A DNA stretch of 5,982 nt from Thioalkalivibrio nitratireducens (lineage in GTDB: Bacteria > Pseudomonadota > Gammaproteobacteria > Ectothiorhodospirales > Ectothiorhodospiraceae), in NCBI GenBank assembly GCA_011390385.1, contig JAABSN010000202.1, positions 1 to 5,982 of the forward strand, in the 5' to 3' direction. The position numbers and the translations under genes are program-made. Within the stretch, counting starts at the first letter, position 1; each line of letters opens with the position of its first letter. The notes beneath the pieces are model-generated. The model made no database searches. It had not been told where the DNA came from and saw only the letters and a program-made list of their open reading frames with translations. Positions 1 through 5,982 of this stretch are shown piece after piece.

Positions 1-77
1 TGCACGTGGACGGTCGCGAGATCTATACCGCAAAGGATCTGCGCGTCGGCCTGTTCACCTCGACAGAGGATTTCTGA
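1..77 (+). CDS. fabA: 3-hydroxydecanoyl-ACP dehydratase/isomerase FabA, C-terminal end (partial)
   Basis: Only the last 24 codons and the TGA stop (75-77) are present; the 5' part lies outside the window. The frame beginning at base 3 reads HVDGREIYTAKDLRVGLF and ends STEDF. This closely matches the C-terminus of FabA as I recall it from E. coli (VDGRLIYTASDLKVGLF...). FabA is a cytoplasmic hotdog-fold enzyme that dehydrates 3-hydroxydecanoyl-ACP and isomerises trans-2- to cis-3-decenoyl-ACP, the branch point for unsaturated fatty acids. The catalytic His and Asp would be upstream and are not visible. The gene is convergent with dcd across a gap holding a palindromic repeat. No fabB follows on this strand, unlike the fabAB pair of Pseudomonas. 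The identification rests on a short but characteristic tail. Confidence 0.85.
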   Translation, partial: HVDGREIYTAKDLRVGLFTSTEDF

Positions 78-182
78 AGACTGATTTCGCTCCCGGTCTG
101 CTGCCTGCTGCGCAGCGCTGGTCTGACTCTCGTCACCTCGGGCTAACCGCCATGGCGCCCGCTGCCACCCCACAACATGAAG

Positions 183-296
183 GGCGTAGGGTGCCAATGA
201 GCGCAGCGAATTGCACCGTCCGAGGCCCGAACGCCCGAGGGTGATCGGCGGCGCGCTATTGGTGCGGTTCGGCTGCGCCTCACGGCACCCTACGCC
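183..296. repeat. 114-bp palindromic repeat between convergent fabA and dcd
   Basis: The outer arms are a perfect 13-bp inverted repeat, GGCGTAGGGTGCC at 183-195 and its complement at 284-296. The dyad continues with mismatches and one or two indels through 196-217 and 261-283 (a GAGCGCAGCGAA-type arm against a TTCGGCTGCGCCTC-type arm). A central spacer of about 43 bases (218-260) holds no gene. Palindromes of the form GTAGGGTGC...GCACCCTAC are, as I recall, dispersed in many proteobacterial genomes. It lies between two convergent genes, so the folded RNA could terminate or protect both transcripts. No T-run follows either arm, so it is not a classical intrinsic terminator. Mobility is inferred, not seen. 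Confidence 0.75.
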
Positions 297-331
297 AACG
301 ATCGAACTGATGCCCGGCCCAGGGCTCCGTC

Positions 332-898
332 TCAGGTCTTGGGCAGCGTAACTCCCCTCTGGCCCTGGTATTTGCCGCCCCGGTCCATGTACGACGTCTC
401 GCAGACTTCGTCGGATTCCAGAAACAGCATCTGGGCGACGCCTTCGTTGGCGTAGATTTTTGCCGGTAACGGCGTGGTGTTGGAAAACTCCAGTGTCACG
501 TGCCCCTCCCACTCGGGCTCCAGAGGGGTCACGTTTACAATGATCCCGCAACGGGCATAGGTGCTTTTGCCCAGGCAGATGGTCAGTACGTTGCGGGGGA
601 TACGGAAATACTCGACCGTGCGCGCCAGGGCAAAGGAATTCGGCGGGATGATGCAGACGTCGGCCTTCACATCAACGAAGCTGCGTTCGTCGAAGGCCTT
701 CGGATCGACGATCGAACTGTTGATGTTGGTGAAGATCTTGAATTCGTCCGCGCAACGGACGTCATAGCCGTAGCTCGAGGTCCCATAGGACACGATGCGC
801 AGATCGTCCCGATAGCGCACCTGCCCCGGCTCGAAAGGCTCGATCATGCCGGTGGACTCGGCCATGCGTCGAATCCACCGGTCCGACTTGATCGACAT
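332..898 (-). CDS. dcd: dCTP deaminase
   Basis: This 188-residue cytoplasmic enzyme deaminates dCTP to dUTP and ammonia, feeding dUMP and then dTMP synthesis. The length equals that of the Pseudomonas-type Dcd, and long stretches match it, including SSYGYDVRC (41-49), the [15 protein letters not shown] block (88-102) and [14 protein letters not shown] (129-142). Key residues by family comparison are Ser112 and Arg116 in GKSTYAR and the catalytic Glu137 in TLEFSN. The C-terminal [14 protein letters not shown] tail, which closes over the triphosphate in the trimer, is intact. The ATG lies 3 nt after the mrp stop. I see no strong Shine-Dalgarno before it, so translation is probably coupled to mrp. 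Nothing appears degraded. Confidence 0.97.
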
Positions 899-901
899 CG
901 G

Positions 902-1993
902 TCAGGTGTTCTTGATCACGATGCTGGGGAACTTGCCACTGTAATCCTTGCTCGTCTCGGCCAGCTTGGCGCTGGTGCGGCGGGCGATCTCTCGATAGAT
1001 TTCGGCGATGCGGCTGTCGGGGGCACGCACCACGGTCGGCTCACCGCCGTCGGCCTGTTCCCGGATACTGATATCGAGCGGCAATGCGCCGAGCAGCTCG
1101 ACTCCGTGGTCCGCCGCCATCTTCTCGCCGCCCCCCTGGCCGAAAATGTACTCCTCGTGACCGCAGTTCGAGCAGATGTGGATGCTCATGTTCTCCACGA
1201 TACCGAGCACGGGAACGTCCACTTTTTCGAACATTTTCAGCCCCTTGCGGGCATCCAGAAGGGCGATGTCCTGGGGCGTGGTCACGATCACCGCCCCGCT
1301 GACCGGGATCTTCTGTGACAGCGTCAGCTGGACGTCGCCGGTACCCGGCGGCAGATCCACCACGAGGTAGTCGAGATCCTCCCAGTTGGTCTCGCGCAAC
1401 AGCTGTTCCAGCGCCTGGGTCACCATCGGCCCGCGCCAGATCATCGGGGTGTCTTCCTCGATCAGAAAGCCGATCGACATCGCCTGCAGGCCGTATTTCC
1501 GCAGCGGTTCCATGCTCTTGCCGTCCTTTGACTCCGGCTTGTCGGTGATCCCGAGCATCCGCGGCTGACTGGGGCCGTAGATGTCTGCGTCCAGGATTCC
1601 GACCTTGCCACCTTCGGCAACGAGGGCCAGTGCAAGGTTGACCGCAGTGGTCGATTTGCCGACCCCGCCCTTGCCCGACGCCACGGCGATGATGTTCTTG
1701 ATTCCGGGCATCGGTTTCAGGCTCTTCTGTACCGCATGCGAAACCACTCGGCTGGACACCGTGACATCGGCGTGCTCCAGACCAAGCACGGTTCCAAGCG
1801 CCTTTTCCACGTCCCCGCGCAACTCGTCGAAGTAACCCGACGCCGAATAGCCCAGTTCGATCGCAACCGTCGCGCGCGCGCCATCGATCTGGATGTCCTT
1901 CACCGCGCCCGCGGCCATGAGGTCCTTTTCCAGGTATTTGTCCTGCACTGTTTTCAGGGCAGTTTCGATCTGCAGACGCGATAGTTCGGACAT
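902..1993 (-). CDS. apbC: Mrp/ApbC-family iron-sulfur cluster carrier ATPase
   Basis: This 363-residue cytoplasmic P-loop ATPase of the Mrp/NBP35 family binds a [4Fe-4S] cluster, probably at a dimer interface, and passes it to apo-proteins. Residues 1-85 form a MIP18/DUF59-type domain. The ATPase domain follows, with the deviant Walker A GKGGVGKST (107-115), the A'-type DADIYGPSQP (135-144) and Walker B region VVDLPPGTGD (211-220). The cluster-ligand pair CSNC is at 274-277, followed by the family's GGGEKMA stretch (287-293). All hallmark motifs are intact and the length is normal. The ATG at 1993 is preceded by GGGAAG (2008-2003) with 9 nt spacing. It is first in a two-gene unit with dcd, an order I recall from Pseudomonas, where metG lies on the other side. 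No metG is visible here. The alternative family name is mrp. Confidence 0.96.
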   Translation of the reverse strand: MSELSRLQIETALKTVQDKYLEKDLMAAGAVKDIQIDGARATVAIELGYSASGYFDELRGDVEKALGTVLGLEHADVTVSSRVVSHAVQKSLKPMPGIKNIIAVASGKGGVGKSTTAVNLALALVAEGGKVGILDADIYGPSQPRMLGITDKPESKDGKSMEPLRKYGLQAMSIGFLIEEDTPMIWRGPMVTQALEQLLRETNWEDLDYLVVDLPPGTGDVQLTLSQKIPVSGAVIVTTPQDIALLDARKGLKMFEKVDVPVLGIVENMSIHICSNCGHEEYIFGQGGGEKMAADHGVELLGALPLDISIREQADGGEPTVVRAPDSRIAEIYREIARRTSAKLAETSKDYSGKFPSIVIKNT

Positions 1994-2002
1994 GGTTGAC
2001 TG

Positions 2003-2008
2003 CTTCCC
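2003..2008 (-). promoter_or_regulatory. Ribosome binding site of apbC/mrp
   Basis: GGGAAG on the minus strand lies 9 nt before the ATG at 1993. It supports this start over any upstream codon. Confidence 0.6.
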
Positions 2009-2028
2009 TGTGTTTGGTTAGTGCGCGC

Positions 2029-2057
2029 ATAGTAACGGTCGGCAACGGCACCGCCAA
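2029..2057 (-). promoter_or_regulatory. Candidate sigma70 promoter for apbC-dcd
   Basis: On the minus strand TTGGCG (2057-2052) is separated by 17 nt from TACTAT (2034-2029). Each hexamer matches the consensus at 4 of 6 positions and the spacing is optimal. Transcription would begin near 2022, leaving a leader of about 28 nt that contains the Shine-Dalgarno. It is the best-placed candidate seen, but hexamers of this quality occur by chance. Confidence 0.4.
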
Positions 2058-2160
2058 ATCACCCACGGTGGGCGGCACAATACCGGGCGCCAAACCACGG
2101 CGCCGGAGGCACCGCCGACCTGAACGGGGCCGGCATCGCCTTTCATTTTCCGGGTCTGGC

Positions 2161-2179
2161 GCGCAGCGCCACGCTGCGC
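2161..2179. repeat. Short REP-like hairpin
   Basis: GCGCAGC (2161-2167) and GCTGCGC (2173-2179) form a perfect 7-bp stem with a 5-base loop. The sequence around it (GGCGCGCAGCGCCACGCTGC) resembles dispersed palindromic units of gammaproteobacterial chromosomes. No T-run follows. Whether it recurs elsewhere cannot be judged from one copy. Confidence 0.4.
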
Positions 2180-2191
2180 TCGCGGCTACAG

Positions 2192-2239
2192 GCTGCGCTC
2201 CTCGCGATGACGGGTTGACTCAGCACTTCCCTAGCAGCC
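2192..2239. repeat. Half copy of the inverted-repeat element (right arm only)
   Basis: Bases 2192-2212 are identical over 21 bp to 2351-2371, the right arm of the complete element downstream. The similarity continues, with substitutions and one indel, through the CTTCCCTAG end at 2234. No matching left arm is present upstream, so this is a remnant or a separately acquired end. It points the same way as the complete copy's right arm. Confidence 0.6.
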
Positions 2240-2270
2240 TGTCGGACTTGGGCTGCTAGGGAAACGCTGA
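2220..2270. repeat. 20-bp inverted repeat joining the two element copies
   Basis: Bases 2220-2239 and 2251-2270 are inverted repeats matching at 18 of 20 positions around an 11-base spacer (TGTCGGACTTG). The core CCCTAGCAGCC / GGCTGCTAGGG is perfect. The dyad is formed by the right end of the half copy facing the left end of the full copy. Its RNA would be a strong hairpin, but no T-run follows, so terminator function is uncertain. Confidence 0.65.
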
Positions 2271-2392
2271 TTAATGCACGTGTCATTGCGAGCGAAGCGC
2301 GGCAATCTAGGCGGCGTACGAGAGATCAACGGCTTATGGATCGCCACGTCGCTGCGCTCCTCGCGATGACGAGTAAATCAGCGTTTCCCTAG
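2256..2392. repeat. MITE-like palindromic element (137 bp) ending in the dacB stop codon
   Basis: Terminal inverted repeats CTAGGGAAACGCTGATT (2256-2272) and its exact complement (2376-2392) enclose a second imperfect dyad. That inner dyad is GTCATTGCGAGCGAAGCG...GCAATC (2282-2307) against the complement at 2339-2370. The inner arm type, TCATTGCGAGCGAAGCG...GCAATC, is one I recall as dispersed in proteobacterial genomes. It has no coding capacity, consistent with a non-autonomous miniature element. No target-site duplication is obvious. The right terminal repeat contains the CTA that reads as the TAG stop of dacB on the minus strand. Confidence 0.7.
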
Positions 2393-3903
2393 AGGCTGTG
2401 CACCCAGCGCAACACCGCTTTCTGCAGATTCGCTCCGGCGCCTCGGTGCGCATTCGGGTGATTGACCAGTAGCACGACCATCACGTCCTCGTTACTTCGG
2501 TTGCGAACATACCCGGCCACCGCCGAAACCTCATTGAGATGTCCGGTCTTCAGGTGCATGCGGCCGGTTTCGGGCACGTCCGTGAAACGACGGCGCAAAG
2601 TCCCGTCGAGACCGGCGATCGCCAGCGAGGAAACGAACTCGGCGCGCCATGGGCTGTCCCAACCGGCCTGGAGCACCTGTCCAAGCTGTTCCGGAGTCAT
2701 GCGTACATGCCGGCTCAGGCCAGACCCGTTGTCGATGATCATGCCGCCGACATCGATTCCGCGCTCCCGAAGCACGTCGTACAATGCCTGGCGGGATTTC
2801 TCCACCGTCGCGGGCGCACCGAACCGTTCCGCACCCAGGGTCAGCGCCAGGTGCCGCGCCACCACGTTCGAACTCCACTTGTTGGCGGCCCGAATGATCT
2901 CGCCCAGCGGTCGCGACTCGTGCGCGAGCAGCGGCGGCCCGTCCGGAACCGGTGGCGCCCCGTAACGCACATCGCCAGCAAGTTCGCCACCCCACTGCGC
3001 CCAGTGCAGACGAAACAGCTCGCGGTTGTATGCTTCCGGCGCGATGGCCGTCCGCAACAACGCATAATCGCCGCAATTGACCGGGTAGTTGCCGGAAAAG
3101 ACCGCCCGCGACCGGCCGGCTCCGTTGTCCACTTCGTAACGGATACCGCGCTGCCACCCGCCGCAGTTCCCTTGCACGCCACGCAGCTCGTTCACGATCT
3201 CCAGACCCGGGAGGGGTGGATCCGCCTCGACGCGTACACCGCGACCATCGGAGTCGGGCAGTACGTGAAAATAGAGCGCGCTGCCATTCACGTGCAGGGC
3301 ATGCGGCGGCTGATTGTAGGCGCGCAGCGGCTGGCCATCGAACGCACCGGGATCCTCCCGAGCGACCCGGAAATGGCTGGTATCGAGCAACACATTACCT
3401 TCGATACGCCGCAGCCCGGTACGCCGAAGCGCTCCGAGCATGCGCCAGTGTTCTTCGCTGACCATTCCTGGATCACCGCTGCCGCGCAGCACCAGATCCC
3501 CGTTGAGCACTCCCCCGCGGATCGGCGCGGTCGCATGGATCTCGGTGGTCCATACGTGATTCGGGCCCAGTTCGGAAAGGGCCGCCAGGGTGGTGGCCAG
3601 TTTGGCCGTCGAAGCGGGATTGAACGACGCGCGTGCATTGAGTCGAGCCAGCGGGGTCGGGTCGCCGACCCGCTGTACCCATAGACCGACCGCGTCCGGA
3701 GGCAGGTTCTGGTCCCGCACGGCCTGCTGCAGGGCTTCCGGCAGCAGTGAAAACGAGGCCGTCGCTGCGCCAGCCGCCAGCGACGCCAGGAGTAGCAACA
3801 CGATTCCGAGCAGAGGCGGGAGGACCCGCAACCTGTTAGCGCGATTCCAGCGATCCACCGCAAACGGCAATTCGGCTCGTGCGGAGCCGCCATTCGAAAT
3901 CAC
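2389..3903 (-). CDS. dacB: D-alanyl-D-alanine carboxypeptidase/endopeptidase (PBP4 family, DacB)
   Basis: This periplasmic class C penicillin-binding protein removes terminal D-Ala from stem peptides and cleaves D-Ala-mDAP cross-links. From the chosen GTG start it is 504 residues, near the family length (E. coli about 477). A signal peptide is clear: a basic stretch around WNRANRLR (18-25), a hydrophobic core at about 28-45, and AATA before a likely cut near residue 49. Active-site motifs are all present: SxxK as STAK (Ser98, Lys101), SxN as SSN (344-346), DNGSGLSR (391-398) and KTG (452-454). GTG at 3903 is chosen because GGAG lies 5 nt before it. GTG at 3858 would give a more compact signal peptide but lacks a ribosome site. 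The frame is open to ATG 4056, but that start would overlap the upstream gene and add a non-signal N-terminus. The stop TAG lies inside a MITE-like repeat. Confidence 0.93.
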   Translation of the reverse strand: MISNGGSARAELPFAVDRWNRANRLRVLPPLLGIVLLLLASLAAGAATASFSLLPEALQQAVRDQNLPPDAVGLWVQRVGDPTPLARLNARASFNPASTAKLATTLAALSELGPNHVWTTEIHATAPIRGGVLNGDLVLRGSGDPGMVSEEHWRMLGALRRTGLRRIEGNVLLDTSHFRVAREDPGAFDGQPLRAYNQPPHALHVNGSALYFHVLPDSDGRGVRVEADPPLPGLEIVNELRGVQGNCGGWQRGIRYEVDNGAGRSRAVFSGNYPVNCGDYALLRTAIAPEAYNRELFRLHWAQWGGELAGDVRYGAPPVPDGPPLLAHESRPLGEIIRAANKWSSNVVARHLALTLGAERFGAPATVEKSRQALYDVLRERGIDVGGMIIDNGSGLSRHVRMTPEQLGQVLQAGWDSPWRAEFVSSLAIAGLDGTLRRRFTDVPETGRMHLKTGHLNEVSAVAGYVRNRSNEDVMVVLLVNHPNAHRGAGANLQKAVLRWVHSL

Positions 3904-3985
3904 TCTCGCTCCAGCGCTTTCAGAACCTCTCGCCAACAAACCCGTGCACCTCCCAAACCGTCGTCCGCACATGGTGCGCAACAGA

Positions 3986-5023
3986 CTAGCGGGTTGGCAA
4001 GTGCCTTGCCACGGGCAACGGTACCGGCGCGGTCGGAACGGCCGTGCAGGGACCAATCATATTCCCCAGGCCATAGTCGATCCCCAGCCCGCGACAAAGC
4101 CGAAGATCCTCCGGATCATCGAGGCCATCGGCAACCGTCGCGGCGCCGAGACTGCGTGCGGTGGCGACGAGGCCATCAAGGAGGGAGGCCACAGGCGTCG
4201 ACACCTGTGCCTCGCGAACCAGTCCGGTATCGAGCCGGACGAACTCGGGCTCGAGACCCGCGATCAGGCCGACCTGGCCCAGACCCGCACCCACTTCTCC
4301 CAGCGCAATCCGGAATCCCATGCTGCGCAGTAGTCCGCAACTGTTGACCAATGCATCGATGTCGTCGACCTGGCCGCGCTGGGCGACCTCGATCACGACG
4401 TCGGCGGGATCCAGTCCAAGGCGCTCGAGACAGGTGTAGGAAGGATGCCGGTGCAGATCCTGCCGCAGCAGTGACTGCGGGCTGGCACTGATGAACACGG
4501 GCATCCCTTGAGGAAGACACTCCGACTTCTTTACCAAGGCACTGATCTGGCAGGCCTGCTCGACCGCGGCGAGCCGCCGCGCGTTACGCGCAAGCTGATA
4601 GAACTCGGGCCCGTGTACGAGGCCGCGATCGGGGTGCTCCAGCTGGCACGGCATGTGGTAACCGAGCAGAGGACCATCACCCGACAACGCAACCACCGCC
4701 TGGAACCCGGGCCGCACCAGATCACCGAGCTCGCCCATCACCCAAGGCTCATGCAGACGCGTGTGCAGCACGCTCAGCGGTTCCAGTTCATCGAGCACGG
4801 ACAACGACAGGCGCCCGTCGAAATCGGGGTTGACCCAGACGGCCAGACAGTCGGAAAGCATCTGCGAAGGTGTCTCGCCAACGAGCGCTTCGACCAGATC
4901 AGCGAGATCCATCATCGTGGGCAACGGGAAGGCCCAGATCCGGTGTGATTCCCGGCTCAGGGGCCGGCCCCAGCGGTTCCAGCTCTTGGGTACATCGTCC
5001 CCGCACAAACGGACTACCAGCAT
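3986..5023 (-). CDS. Degenerate (probably non-catalytic) EAL-domain protein
   Basis: This 345-residue protein has no signal peptide or membrane segment. Residues from about 105 to 328 follow the EAL c-di-GMP phosphodiesterase fold order, but the catalytic set is mostly lost. The EAL triplet is HMP (123-125), the N of VN(V/L)S is Phe177, DDFG is GEVG (242-245), the Lys of K-x-D is Arg263, and AEGVE is ADGLD (298-302). The final QGY-type motif is LGN (319-321). Glu212 in IEVAQ is the only obvious ligand kept. Hydrolysis is therefore unlikely, and a role as a protein- or nucleotide-binding regulator (as for YdiV-like proteins) is inference. Residues 1-104 are not recognised. ATG 5023 is supported by GAGGAAG (5037-5031) with 7 nt spacing. 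It follows a predicted sigma54/NtrC control region and precedes dacB by 82 nt on the same strand. Confidence 0.8.
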   Translation of the reverse strand: MLVVRLCGDDVPKSWNRWGRPLSRESHRIWAFPLPTMMDLADLVEALVGETPSQMLSDCLAVWVNPDFDGRLSLSVLDELEPLSVLHTRLHEPWVMGELGDLVRPGFQAVVALSGDGPLLGYHMPCQLEHPDRGLVHGPEFYQLARNARRLAAVEQACQISALVKKSECLPQGMPVFISASPQSLLRQDLHRHPSYTCLERLGLDPADVVIEVAQRGQVDDIDALVNSCGLLRSMGFRIALGEVGAGLGQVGLIAGLEPEFVRLDTGLVREAQVSTPVASLLDGLVATARSLGAATVADGLDDPEDLRLCRGLGIDYGLGNMIGPCTAVPTAPVPLPVARHLPTR

Positions 5024-5030
5024 GGCTCAG

Positions 5031-5037
5031 CTTCCTC
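5031..5037 (-). promoter_or_regulatory. Ribosome binding site of the degenerate EAL gene
   Basis: GAGGAAG on the minus strand lies 7 nt before the ATG at 5023. It fixes that start and falls inside the short leader predicted from the -24/-12 promoter. Confidence 0.7.
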
Positions 5038-5061
5038 GGCTTCCTGGCCTGCCGCCTCCAA

Positions 5062-5077
5062 TGCAAGTTGCGGACCA
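5062..5077 (-). promoter_or_regulatory. Candidate sigma54 (-24/-12) promoter of the EAL gene
   Basis: On the minus strand TGGTCCGCAACTTGCA matches the sigma54 consensus TGGCACG-N4-TTGC(A/T) at all defined positions except CA to TC. The invariant GG (5076-5075) and GC (5064-5063) are exactly 10 nt apart. Transcription would start near 5051, about 28 nt before the ATG, with the Shine-Dalgarno in between. Two NtrC-like dyads upstream strengthen the call, because sigma54 promoters need an upstream activator. Confidence 0.65.
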
Positions 5078-5116
5078 CATCGGAGAGTGTCTTGGCAGAG
5101 AGATTCCAGCACGAAT

Positions 5117-5131
5117 GCACCGCAATGGTGC
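5117..5131. promoter_or_regulatory. Putative NtrC-binding site, promoter-proximal
   Basis: The plus strand reads GCACCGCAATGGTGC, a perfect 5-bp dyad with a 5-base spacer, extended as TGCACC...GGTGCTT. This is the layout of the E. coli glnA NtrC site I recall as TGCACCAACATGGTGCTT. Its centre is about 73 bp upstream of the predicted start of transcription. Confidence 0.6.
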
Positions 5132-5160
5132 TTCAAGCGCGGCGCGATCCGCTACAACAA

Positions 5161-5175
5161 GCACCAGGAGAGTGC
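5161..5175. promoter_or_regulatory. Putative NtrC-binding site, promoter-distal
   Basis: The minus strand reads GCACTCTCCTGGTGC, the same layout as the E. coli glnA site I recall as GCACTATATTGGTGC. Its centre is 44 bp (about four helical turns) beyond the proximal site and about 117 bp upstream of the predicted transcription start. It begins 40 bp past the DUF3581 stop. Confidence 0.55.
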
Positions 5176-5215
5176 ACATCCTGCTCGCCGCGCGTCGGCT
5201 GGTTCGAAAAAGCGC

Positions 5216-5947
5216 TCAGGCAGCCTCGTACGCGGCCTTCCAACCCGCGTATTCCCGCACCAGTCCCTGCATCGTCTGTGCGTCGTAGGTACGCAATCCG
5301 CTCAGGACCAGATTCTTGCTCCCGATCGCGAAGGGGTCACCATCGACGGTCAGTGCGTAGTCCAGCCGCACATCGCCGCGCTTTCCATCCACTTTCATCG
5401 TGGCAGCGTTCAATTGCGGCTGCACGGTTTCGGTCAATACTCCGACCGGGATCTGGATCTCCAGCGACATGCTTTCGTAAATGACCAGAGGCCGCGCGGG
5501 ATTGACCATGACCTGATGCTGTTCCATCAGCGGAACGAGTACATGGGGAAAGTTCTGGCCCGAAAAGGCCACGTAACTGCGGGTCAGGGCCTCGATCGTG
5601 TAGGGATCGGTCACCACCGCACCATCACGCTCGACCTCCAGATAGCTCTTGCCACGAAAGTCGGTGATCGCGAACTGCGATCCGGGAGCCTCGGGAAAGT
5701 TCAGCGGCACAGACGCCCCCACCATACCGACGAAGCGGCAACGCATGCGGGCGCTGACACCGTAGCGAGCAAGAACCAAGGCGAACAGGAGGTCACCGGG
5801 AACGCAGAAACGCCGGGAGTCAGGGTCGTGGATCGGATTGAAATCGCCAGCGACTTCCTTGGCGAAACGACTGCCCTGCTCCGGCGTGATGAGCACCTGT
5901 CCATCGCGAATTCCATGGAAAGGGTGCAGGAAGGTATCTTCAGTCAC
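5216..5947 (-). CDS. DUF3581 family protein with a MaoC/hotdog-like motif
   Basis: This 243-residue soluble protein matches the gammaproteobacterial DUF3581 family as I recall it. The evidence is the N-terminal block SRFAKEVAGDFNPIHDPDSR (26-45), followed by RFCVPGDLLFALVLARYG (46-63). GDFNPIHD resembles the active-site loop of MaoC-type (R)-enoyl-CoA hydratases, whose Asp and His are catalytic, so an acyl-thioester-binding hotdog fold is plausible. No function has been assigned to the family that I know of. There is no signal peptide or membrane helix. GTG at 5947 is chosen because GGGAG (5958-5954) lies 6 nt before it. An in-frame TTG at 5953 would abut that ribosome site, so it is less likely. 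Its promoter would be beyond the right edge. The gap to the EAL gene carries a separate promoter, so the two are probably not one operon. Confidence 0.8.
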   Translation of the reverse strand: MTEDTFLHPFHGIRDGQVLITPEQGSRFAKEVAGDFNPIHDPDSRRFCVPGDLLFALVLARYGVSARMRCRFVGMVGASVPLNFPEAPGSQFAITDFRGKSYLEVERDGAVVTDPYTIEALTRSYVAFSGQNFPHVLVPLMEQHQVMVNPARPLVIYESMSLEIQIPVGVLTETVQPQLNAATMKVDGKRGDVRLDYALTVDGDPFAIGSKNLVLSGLRTYDAQTMQGLVREYAGWKAAYEAA

Positions 5948-5953
5948 TGGCAA

Positions 5954-5958
5954 CTCCC
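5954..5958 (-). promoter_or_regulatory. Ribosome binding site deciding the DUF3581 start
   Basis: GGGAG on the minus strand is 6 nt before GTG 5947 but directly against TTG 5953. It therefore favours the shorter, GTG-initiated protein. Confidence 0.55.
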
Positions 5959-5982
5959 GAATACGGCAAGAACGGCTGCACT

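Follow-up and report, generated by a model that had tools for sequence, protein, structure and literature searches.

A degenerate EAL-domain gene with a predicted, conserved NtrC/sigma54 promoter in a Thioalkalivibrio clade

A 5,982-nucleotide stretch of Thioalkalivibrio nitratireducens DNA (contig JAABSN010000202.1, positions 1 to 5,982; the whole stretch is referred to here as the window) carries on its minus strand a gene for a degenerate EAL-domain protein. The region ahead of this gene is most probably, with a probability that we place at about 0.85, an NtrC-activated, sigma54-dependent promoter that is conserved in one Thioalkalivibrio clade. The genome sequences themselves establish the elements of this promoter, their conservation, the sharing of its dyads with nitrogen-assimilation genes and the occurrence of NtrC and RpoN in relatives of the organism. 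NtrC/sigma54 promoters are textbook regulatory units, and the sequence evidence suggests that in these soda-lake sulfur bacteria one of them leads cells to make the EAL protein when nitrogen runs short.

Control elements and their conservation

The whole control region sits in the ∼ 190 nt between the stop codon of the upstream gene, which encodes a DUF3581 protein, and the EAL gene. Reading along the minus strand, the distal NtrC-type dyad GCACTCTCCTGGTGC (5175-5161; in full TGCACTCTCCTGGTGCT, 5160..5176) has three mismatches to the consensus TGCACCAnnnTGGTGCA, as this is quoted in PMC8743547, and the proximal dyad GCACCATTGCGGTGC (5131-5117; in full AGCACCATTGCGGTGCA, 5116..5132) has two. 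The dyads are 44 bp apart, start to start, and are followed by a sigma54 -24/-12 element, TGGTCCGCAACTTGCA (5077-5062), with GG-N10-GC spacing, by the ribosome-binding site GAGGAAG (5037-5031) and by the ATG start codon at 5023. All of these elements are located on the minus strand exactly where a first-pass annotation, made from the letters alone, had placed them.

The two dyads are the only matches to GCAC-N7-GTGC in the window (0.21 expected; at least two in 6 of 200 shuffles), and again the only matches to the full consensus with up to three mismatches (0.32 expected; at least two in 9 of 200 shuffles). A close tandem pair did not arise in any of 200 dinucleotide shuffles. The -24/-12 pattern, at up to two mismatches, has four matches in the window against 1.19 expected; by itself this element is weak evidence, and it is its conservation that makes it real. 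A position matrix was also trained on 31 sites ahead of non-EAL genes and then applied to the EAL upstream regions. In the window it ranks the proximal dyad best (18.3) and the distal dyad second (14.4), with the third-best place scoring 6.8.

The EAL gene is present in 11 of 47 genomes of the order (E 1e-50 or less). Ten orthologous loci from Thioalkalivibrio metagenome-assembled genomes (MAGs) were compared, and an eleventh genome, G021, was added later. A -24/-12 element precedes the EAL gene in all 12 copies, the window included, with G021 carrying a variant: the sequence TGGTCCGCAAYTTGC starts 53-56 nt ahead of the start codon both in the window and in 10/10 loci, and in G021 TGGTCCGCGTCTTGC is found there. 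When ten whole genomes were scanned with up to one mismatch allowed, each gave a single -24/-12 match, and all ten matches lie ahead of the EAL gene.

Eleven EAL upstream regions could be tested for dyads; locus L008 was left out, its contig beginning 94 nt ahead of the gene. Two sites at exactly 44 bp are found in nine of the eleven (the window, L001-L007 and L010). The nearer site is 39-41 bp from the promoter element in seven copies, of which G021 has one site and the other six have two; in two copies it is 73 bp away and in a further copy 155 bp. Sites that keep their mutual spacing while their distance to the promoter shifts would be expected of an enhancer bound by interacting NtrC dimers. 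Moreover, no other pair of sites (both scoring at least 12, 17-60 bp apart) occurs in the 107,334 bases scanned. The alignment of orthologues that had been proposed as a check on the first-pass annotation thus finds the dyads and the GG-N10-GC element conserved; as regards the dyads, L009 and G021 are partial exceptions. The 155-bp case is L006 (genome G006), a natural variant of enhancer distance in which the dyad pair stands 155 bp instead of ∼ 40 bp from the -24/-12 element and keeps its 44-bp spacing.

NtrC-type dyads at other genes, and NtrC and RpoN in related genomes

A tandem-dyad scan of ten genomes gave 17 places, against one for the reversed control pattern. These places precede glnL (ntrB) in eight cases, the EAL gene in five, glnA in two, and in one case each a gene for a urea-type binding protein and an open frame in L012; gene families were assigned on one locus each, and the remaining loci were linked to these by tblastn matches of at least 80% identity. 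Two genomes, G008 and G009, have no tandem-dyad place in the whole-genome scan. Single-dyad scans were noisy, giving 50 and 58 matches where the controls gave 15 and 15; the 16 single-dyad loci that were inspected include additional promoters of glnL, glnA and genes for urea-type binding proteins, together with gltB, an ABC transporter permease and ureD. Aside from the EAL gene, L012 and L093, the dyad-linked genes identified belong to nitrogen assimilation or, in the case of the permease, to transport.

The glnA and glnL dyad pairs are 30-32 bp apart (pattern lengths 45-47). Among the 17 pairs the 44-bp spacing is restricted to the EAL gene, and one transporter-gene pair is spaced by 45 bp. 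The first-pass annotation had likened the dyad layout to that of the two strong enterobacterial glnA sites. This likeness is borne out in part: as in glnAp2-type promoters, two GCAC-N7-GTGC dyads stand upstream of a GG-N10-GC -24/-12 element, and the same kind of dyad does precede glnA, whereas the 44-bp spacing departs from the 30-32 bp seen at the glnA and glnL genes of this clade. The target differs too, being a signalling-type protein and not an assimilation enzyme, a transporter or an assimilation regulator.

The tandem dyads of L012 (positions 1501-1546, genome G002) are 31 bp apart and lie ahead of a 485-codon open frame that matches no family in Pfam (1e-8) or NCBIfam (1e-10) and lacks a sigma54-like element within 200 bp. 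This frame is a possible additional NtrC target in G002.

NtrC and RpoN were searched for in the 11 genomes of the orthologue carriers. NtrC is above the curated cut-off in nine, and the C-terminal DNA-binding domain of one NtrC matches Salmonella NtrC 1ntc (1.1e-17). RpoN is matched in all 11, with eight matches above the cut-off and three, apparently fragments, below it. The nitrogen-limitation control that the first-pass annotation had predicted is therefore well supported at the level of sequence, by the conserved elements, by the same dyad at glnA, glnL, gltB and urea-type genes, and by the presence of both regulators in relatives.

Several observations weigh against this assignment. One site of the pair is off by a single base in its GTGC half in L002, L003 and L007, G021 has a single dyad, and the matrix scan found no acceptable dyad in the EAL upstream region of L009. 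The sites used for training were chosen by their GCAC-N7-GTGC core, which ties the matrix in part to the pattern itself. The reversed -24/-12 control pattern gives seven matches in the same ten genomes; one match per genome is therefore about the chance level, and the shared place is the informative part. Single dyads that are equally good occur elsewhere in the loci (among them 17.7 in L003 and 19.3 in L004, each more than 5 kb away), and random sequence offers ∼ 20 places per 3 Mb at the score of the weaker dyad of the window, so that a single dyad counts for little and the case depends on the conserved pair. Finally, the NtrC copy of G002 is partial, and profile matching across the genome found no true NtrC in G008.

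Two other accounts of the elements were weighed. Chance resemblance in unconstrained intergenic DNA would fit a -24/-12 element that, taken alone, is within the range of the shuffles, and the 6 of 200 shuffles that yield two dyads. It accords poorly with conservation among orthologues, with a fixed 44-bp spacing at variable promoter distance and with the absence of a close pair from every shuffle, and its probability is close to negligible. A sigma54 promoter driven mainly by another enhancer-binding protein with an NtrC-like site is given some room by the 16 to 38 ntrC-model matches per genome (fragments and receiver-only matches counted) and by G008, which retains the -24/-12 element though no true NtrC was found there. 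Yet the EAL upstream sequence of G008 ends at 94 nt, and its RpoN match is split over two contigs, which indicates a broken-up assembly and so counts against a different activator. Moreover, glnA, glnL, gltB, ureD and genes for urea-type transport are preceded by the same dyad in these genomes, and the EAL sites are recovered by a matrix that was trained on such non-EAL sites alone. A different activator is accordingly rated as quite improbable.

If the promoter is indeed activated by NtrC, then nitrogen shortage would cause NtrB to phosphorylate NtrC, and NtrC dimers would occupy the two sites, ∼ 73 and ∼ 117 bp ahead of the start. These sites are about four helical turns apart and would therefore lie on the same face of the DNA. 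Once assembled, the dimers would reach sigma54 RNA polymerase at the -24/-12 element by looping, and the promoter would open at about 5051, as judged from the position of the element, giving a leader of ∼ 28 nt. We infer NtrC binding, activation and the response to nitrogen from sequence.

The EAL-domain protein and its gene neighbourhood

The product of the gene (3986..5023, minus strand) is a protein of 345 aa, with an N-terminal alpha/beta part (residues ∼ 1-90) and an EAL fold (∼ 88-332). It belongs to a narrow family (of 7998 candidates scored, 28 match at E 0.001 or less), and no relative was found among viral contigs. An alignment of 23 of these homologues has a mean column identity of 67%. 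The fold is that of an EAL phosphodiesterase of cyclic di-GMP (c-di-GMP). The catalytic set of such enzymes, made up of the EAL Glu, an Asn, an Asp pair, a Lys and a further Glu, is largely missing: 0/23 homologues retain the EAL Glu, 0/23 the catalytic Lys and 1/23 the Asn, and in the window protein Gly replaces the first Asp of the pair and Glu the second. Retention of the ELTE-type Glu is seen in 22/23 homologues and of the EALxR Arg in 3/23, and the window protein is the one without the QG glutamine. The description of the EAL domain as degenerate is thus upheld throughout the family; the label of ‘c-di-GMP-type protein’ holds for the fold, but not for most of the catalytic residues.

The loss of the catalytic Glu and Lys indicates that the protein is probably a protein-binding regulator. 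On balance, we favour a non-enzymatic regulator that would bind another protein as its partner and modulate surface or growth behaviour in nitrogen starvation. A FimX/LapD-type receptor, enzymatically dead and still able to bind c-di-GMP, would instead let nitrogen status set the amount of a c-di-GMP effector. The fold agrees with such a receptor; the near-absence of the EALxR Arg, the complete loss of the EAL Glu and the missing QG glutamine of the window protein argue otherwise, and this possibility is regarded as rather doubtful. The promoter may also have its point in the next gene, dacB, for a cell-wall carboxypeptidase/endopeptidase, so that nitrogen starvation would mainly alter peptidoglycan through cotranscription. 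Indeed, dacB follows the EAL gene on the same strand in 11/11 loci, and a scan of window positions 3700-5300 found no terminator-like site between the two genes. However, the gap of ∼ 100 nt before the usual dacB start could accommodate a promoter of its own, and the EAL protein is itself well conserved, which together make this explanation unlikely. A bolder form of the partner-binding proposal is that a degenerate EAL family, undescribed so far and specific to this clade, forms a core output of the nitrogen-stress response, carrying a glnA/glnL-like NtrC pair and acting without c-di-GMP by contact with, for instance, a nitrogen-signalling, pilus, exopolysaccharide or envelope protein. This is put forward as a tentative suggestion.

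YdiV/RflP is a degenerate EAL protein that acts as an anti-FlhDC factor and is stand-alone, catalytically dead and nutrient-linked. The protein described here shares with it a stand-alone, catalytically dead EAL architecture and a predicted link to nutrients. In contrast, FlhD was detected in none of the 11 genomes, in a search that did detect the E. coli positive control, and flagellin was found in four of the 11, most of which are draft MAGs. Flagellar control of the YdiV type is therefore unlikely.

Twenty weaker genome matches to the EAL protein (E 7.9e-42 to 5.8e-31) score far under the 11 true copies; they were rejected as orthologues and served as a negative control. Nineteen of them (L037-L055) form a second, distant EAL family, several members of which start with a CxxC motif. 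No exact NtrC dyad was found near the open frames of these 19, and L043 alone has an isolated sigma54-like match. Neither a DUF3581 nor a dacB neighbour was present within ∼ 1.5 kb on each side.

The gene order on the minus strand of the window is DUF3581 (5216..5953; Pfam DUF3581, 5.5e-87), control region, EAL-domain gene, dacB (open frame 2389..4056; Pfam Peptidase_S13, 5.1e-88), apbC and dcd. The DUF3581 gene is upstream of the EAL gene in 10/11 loci, the contig of the remaining one, L008, ending there. The true start of dacB is uncertain and likely lies ∼ 100 nt past the EAL stop codon in most orthologues; the two genes are possibly cotranscribed. A sigma54-like sequence, TGGCAAGGCACTTGCC (4011-3996, minus strand), stands immediately ahead of dacB in the window and resembles the element of the urea-type transporter gene; it has no counterpart at the same place in 10/10 orthologues. 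Nested inverted repeats between apbC and dacB (2220-2392; arms 2220-2239/2251-2270, 90%, and 2256-2272/2376-2392, 100%) look like a small palindromic mobile element. A further inverted repeat, resembling a miniature inverted-repeat transposable element, follows dcd (183-296; 25-nt arms, 80% complementary).

Relation to known systems and biological meaning

The first-pass annotation knew of no description, for this gene, of a link between nitrogen limitation and a c-di-GMP-type protein. Such a link has some precedent in Burkholderia cenocepacia H111, where the EAL gene I35_3013/BCAL0652 is strongly NtrC-dependent: in nitrogen-limited growth the ntrC mutant shows a log2 change of -7.2 (PMC5491218). 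The two cases are alike in placing an EAL-domain gene inside the NtrC regulon, and they are likened by the EAL domain only. They differ in bacterial class and in the nature of the evidence, which is RNA-seq in B. cenocepacia and cis-regulatory and comparative here. Among the matches listed from the open-licence literature, no title or abstract opening concerned the present gene or the control of a Thioalkalivibrio EAL gene by NtrC.

Nitrogen signalling is tied to the c-di-GMP machinery in Azospirillum brasilense as well: the PII protein GlnZ contacts this machinery at low 2-oxoglutarate, a state that likely reflects carbon starvation (PMC7646526). There the link is made by GlnZ contacts and not, as proposed for Thioalkalivibrio, by NtrC-dependent transcription of an EAL gene.

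With the promoter assigned to NtrC, a signalling-type gene would join the otherwise assimilatory NtrC target set of these haloalkaliphilic sulfur oxidisers, and an uncharacterised family of degenerate EAL proteins would gain a testable inducing condition. The fixed 44-bp pair at variable distance from the promoter would offer a natural test of how the spacing of NtrC dimers relates to enhancer strength. If the protein does act by contact with a partner, it would provide a link from nitrogen status to behaviour that is separate from the second messenger.
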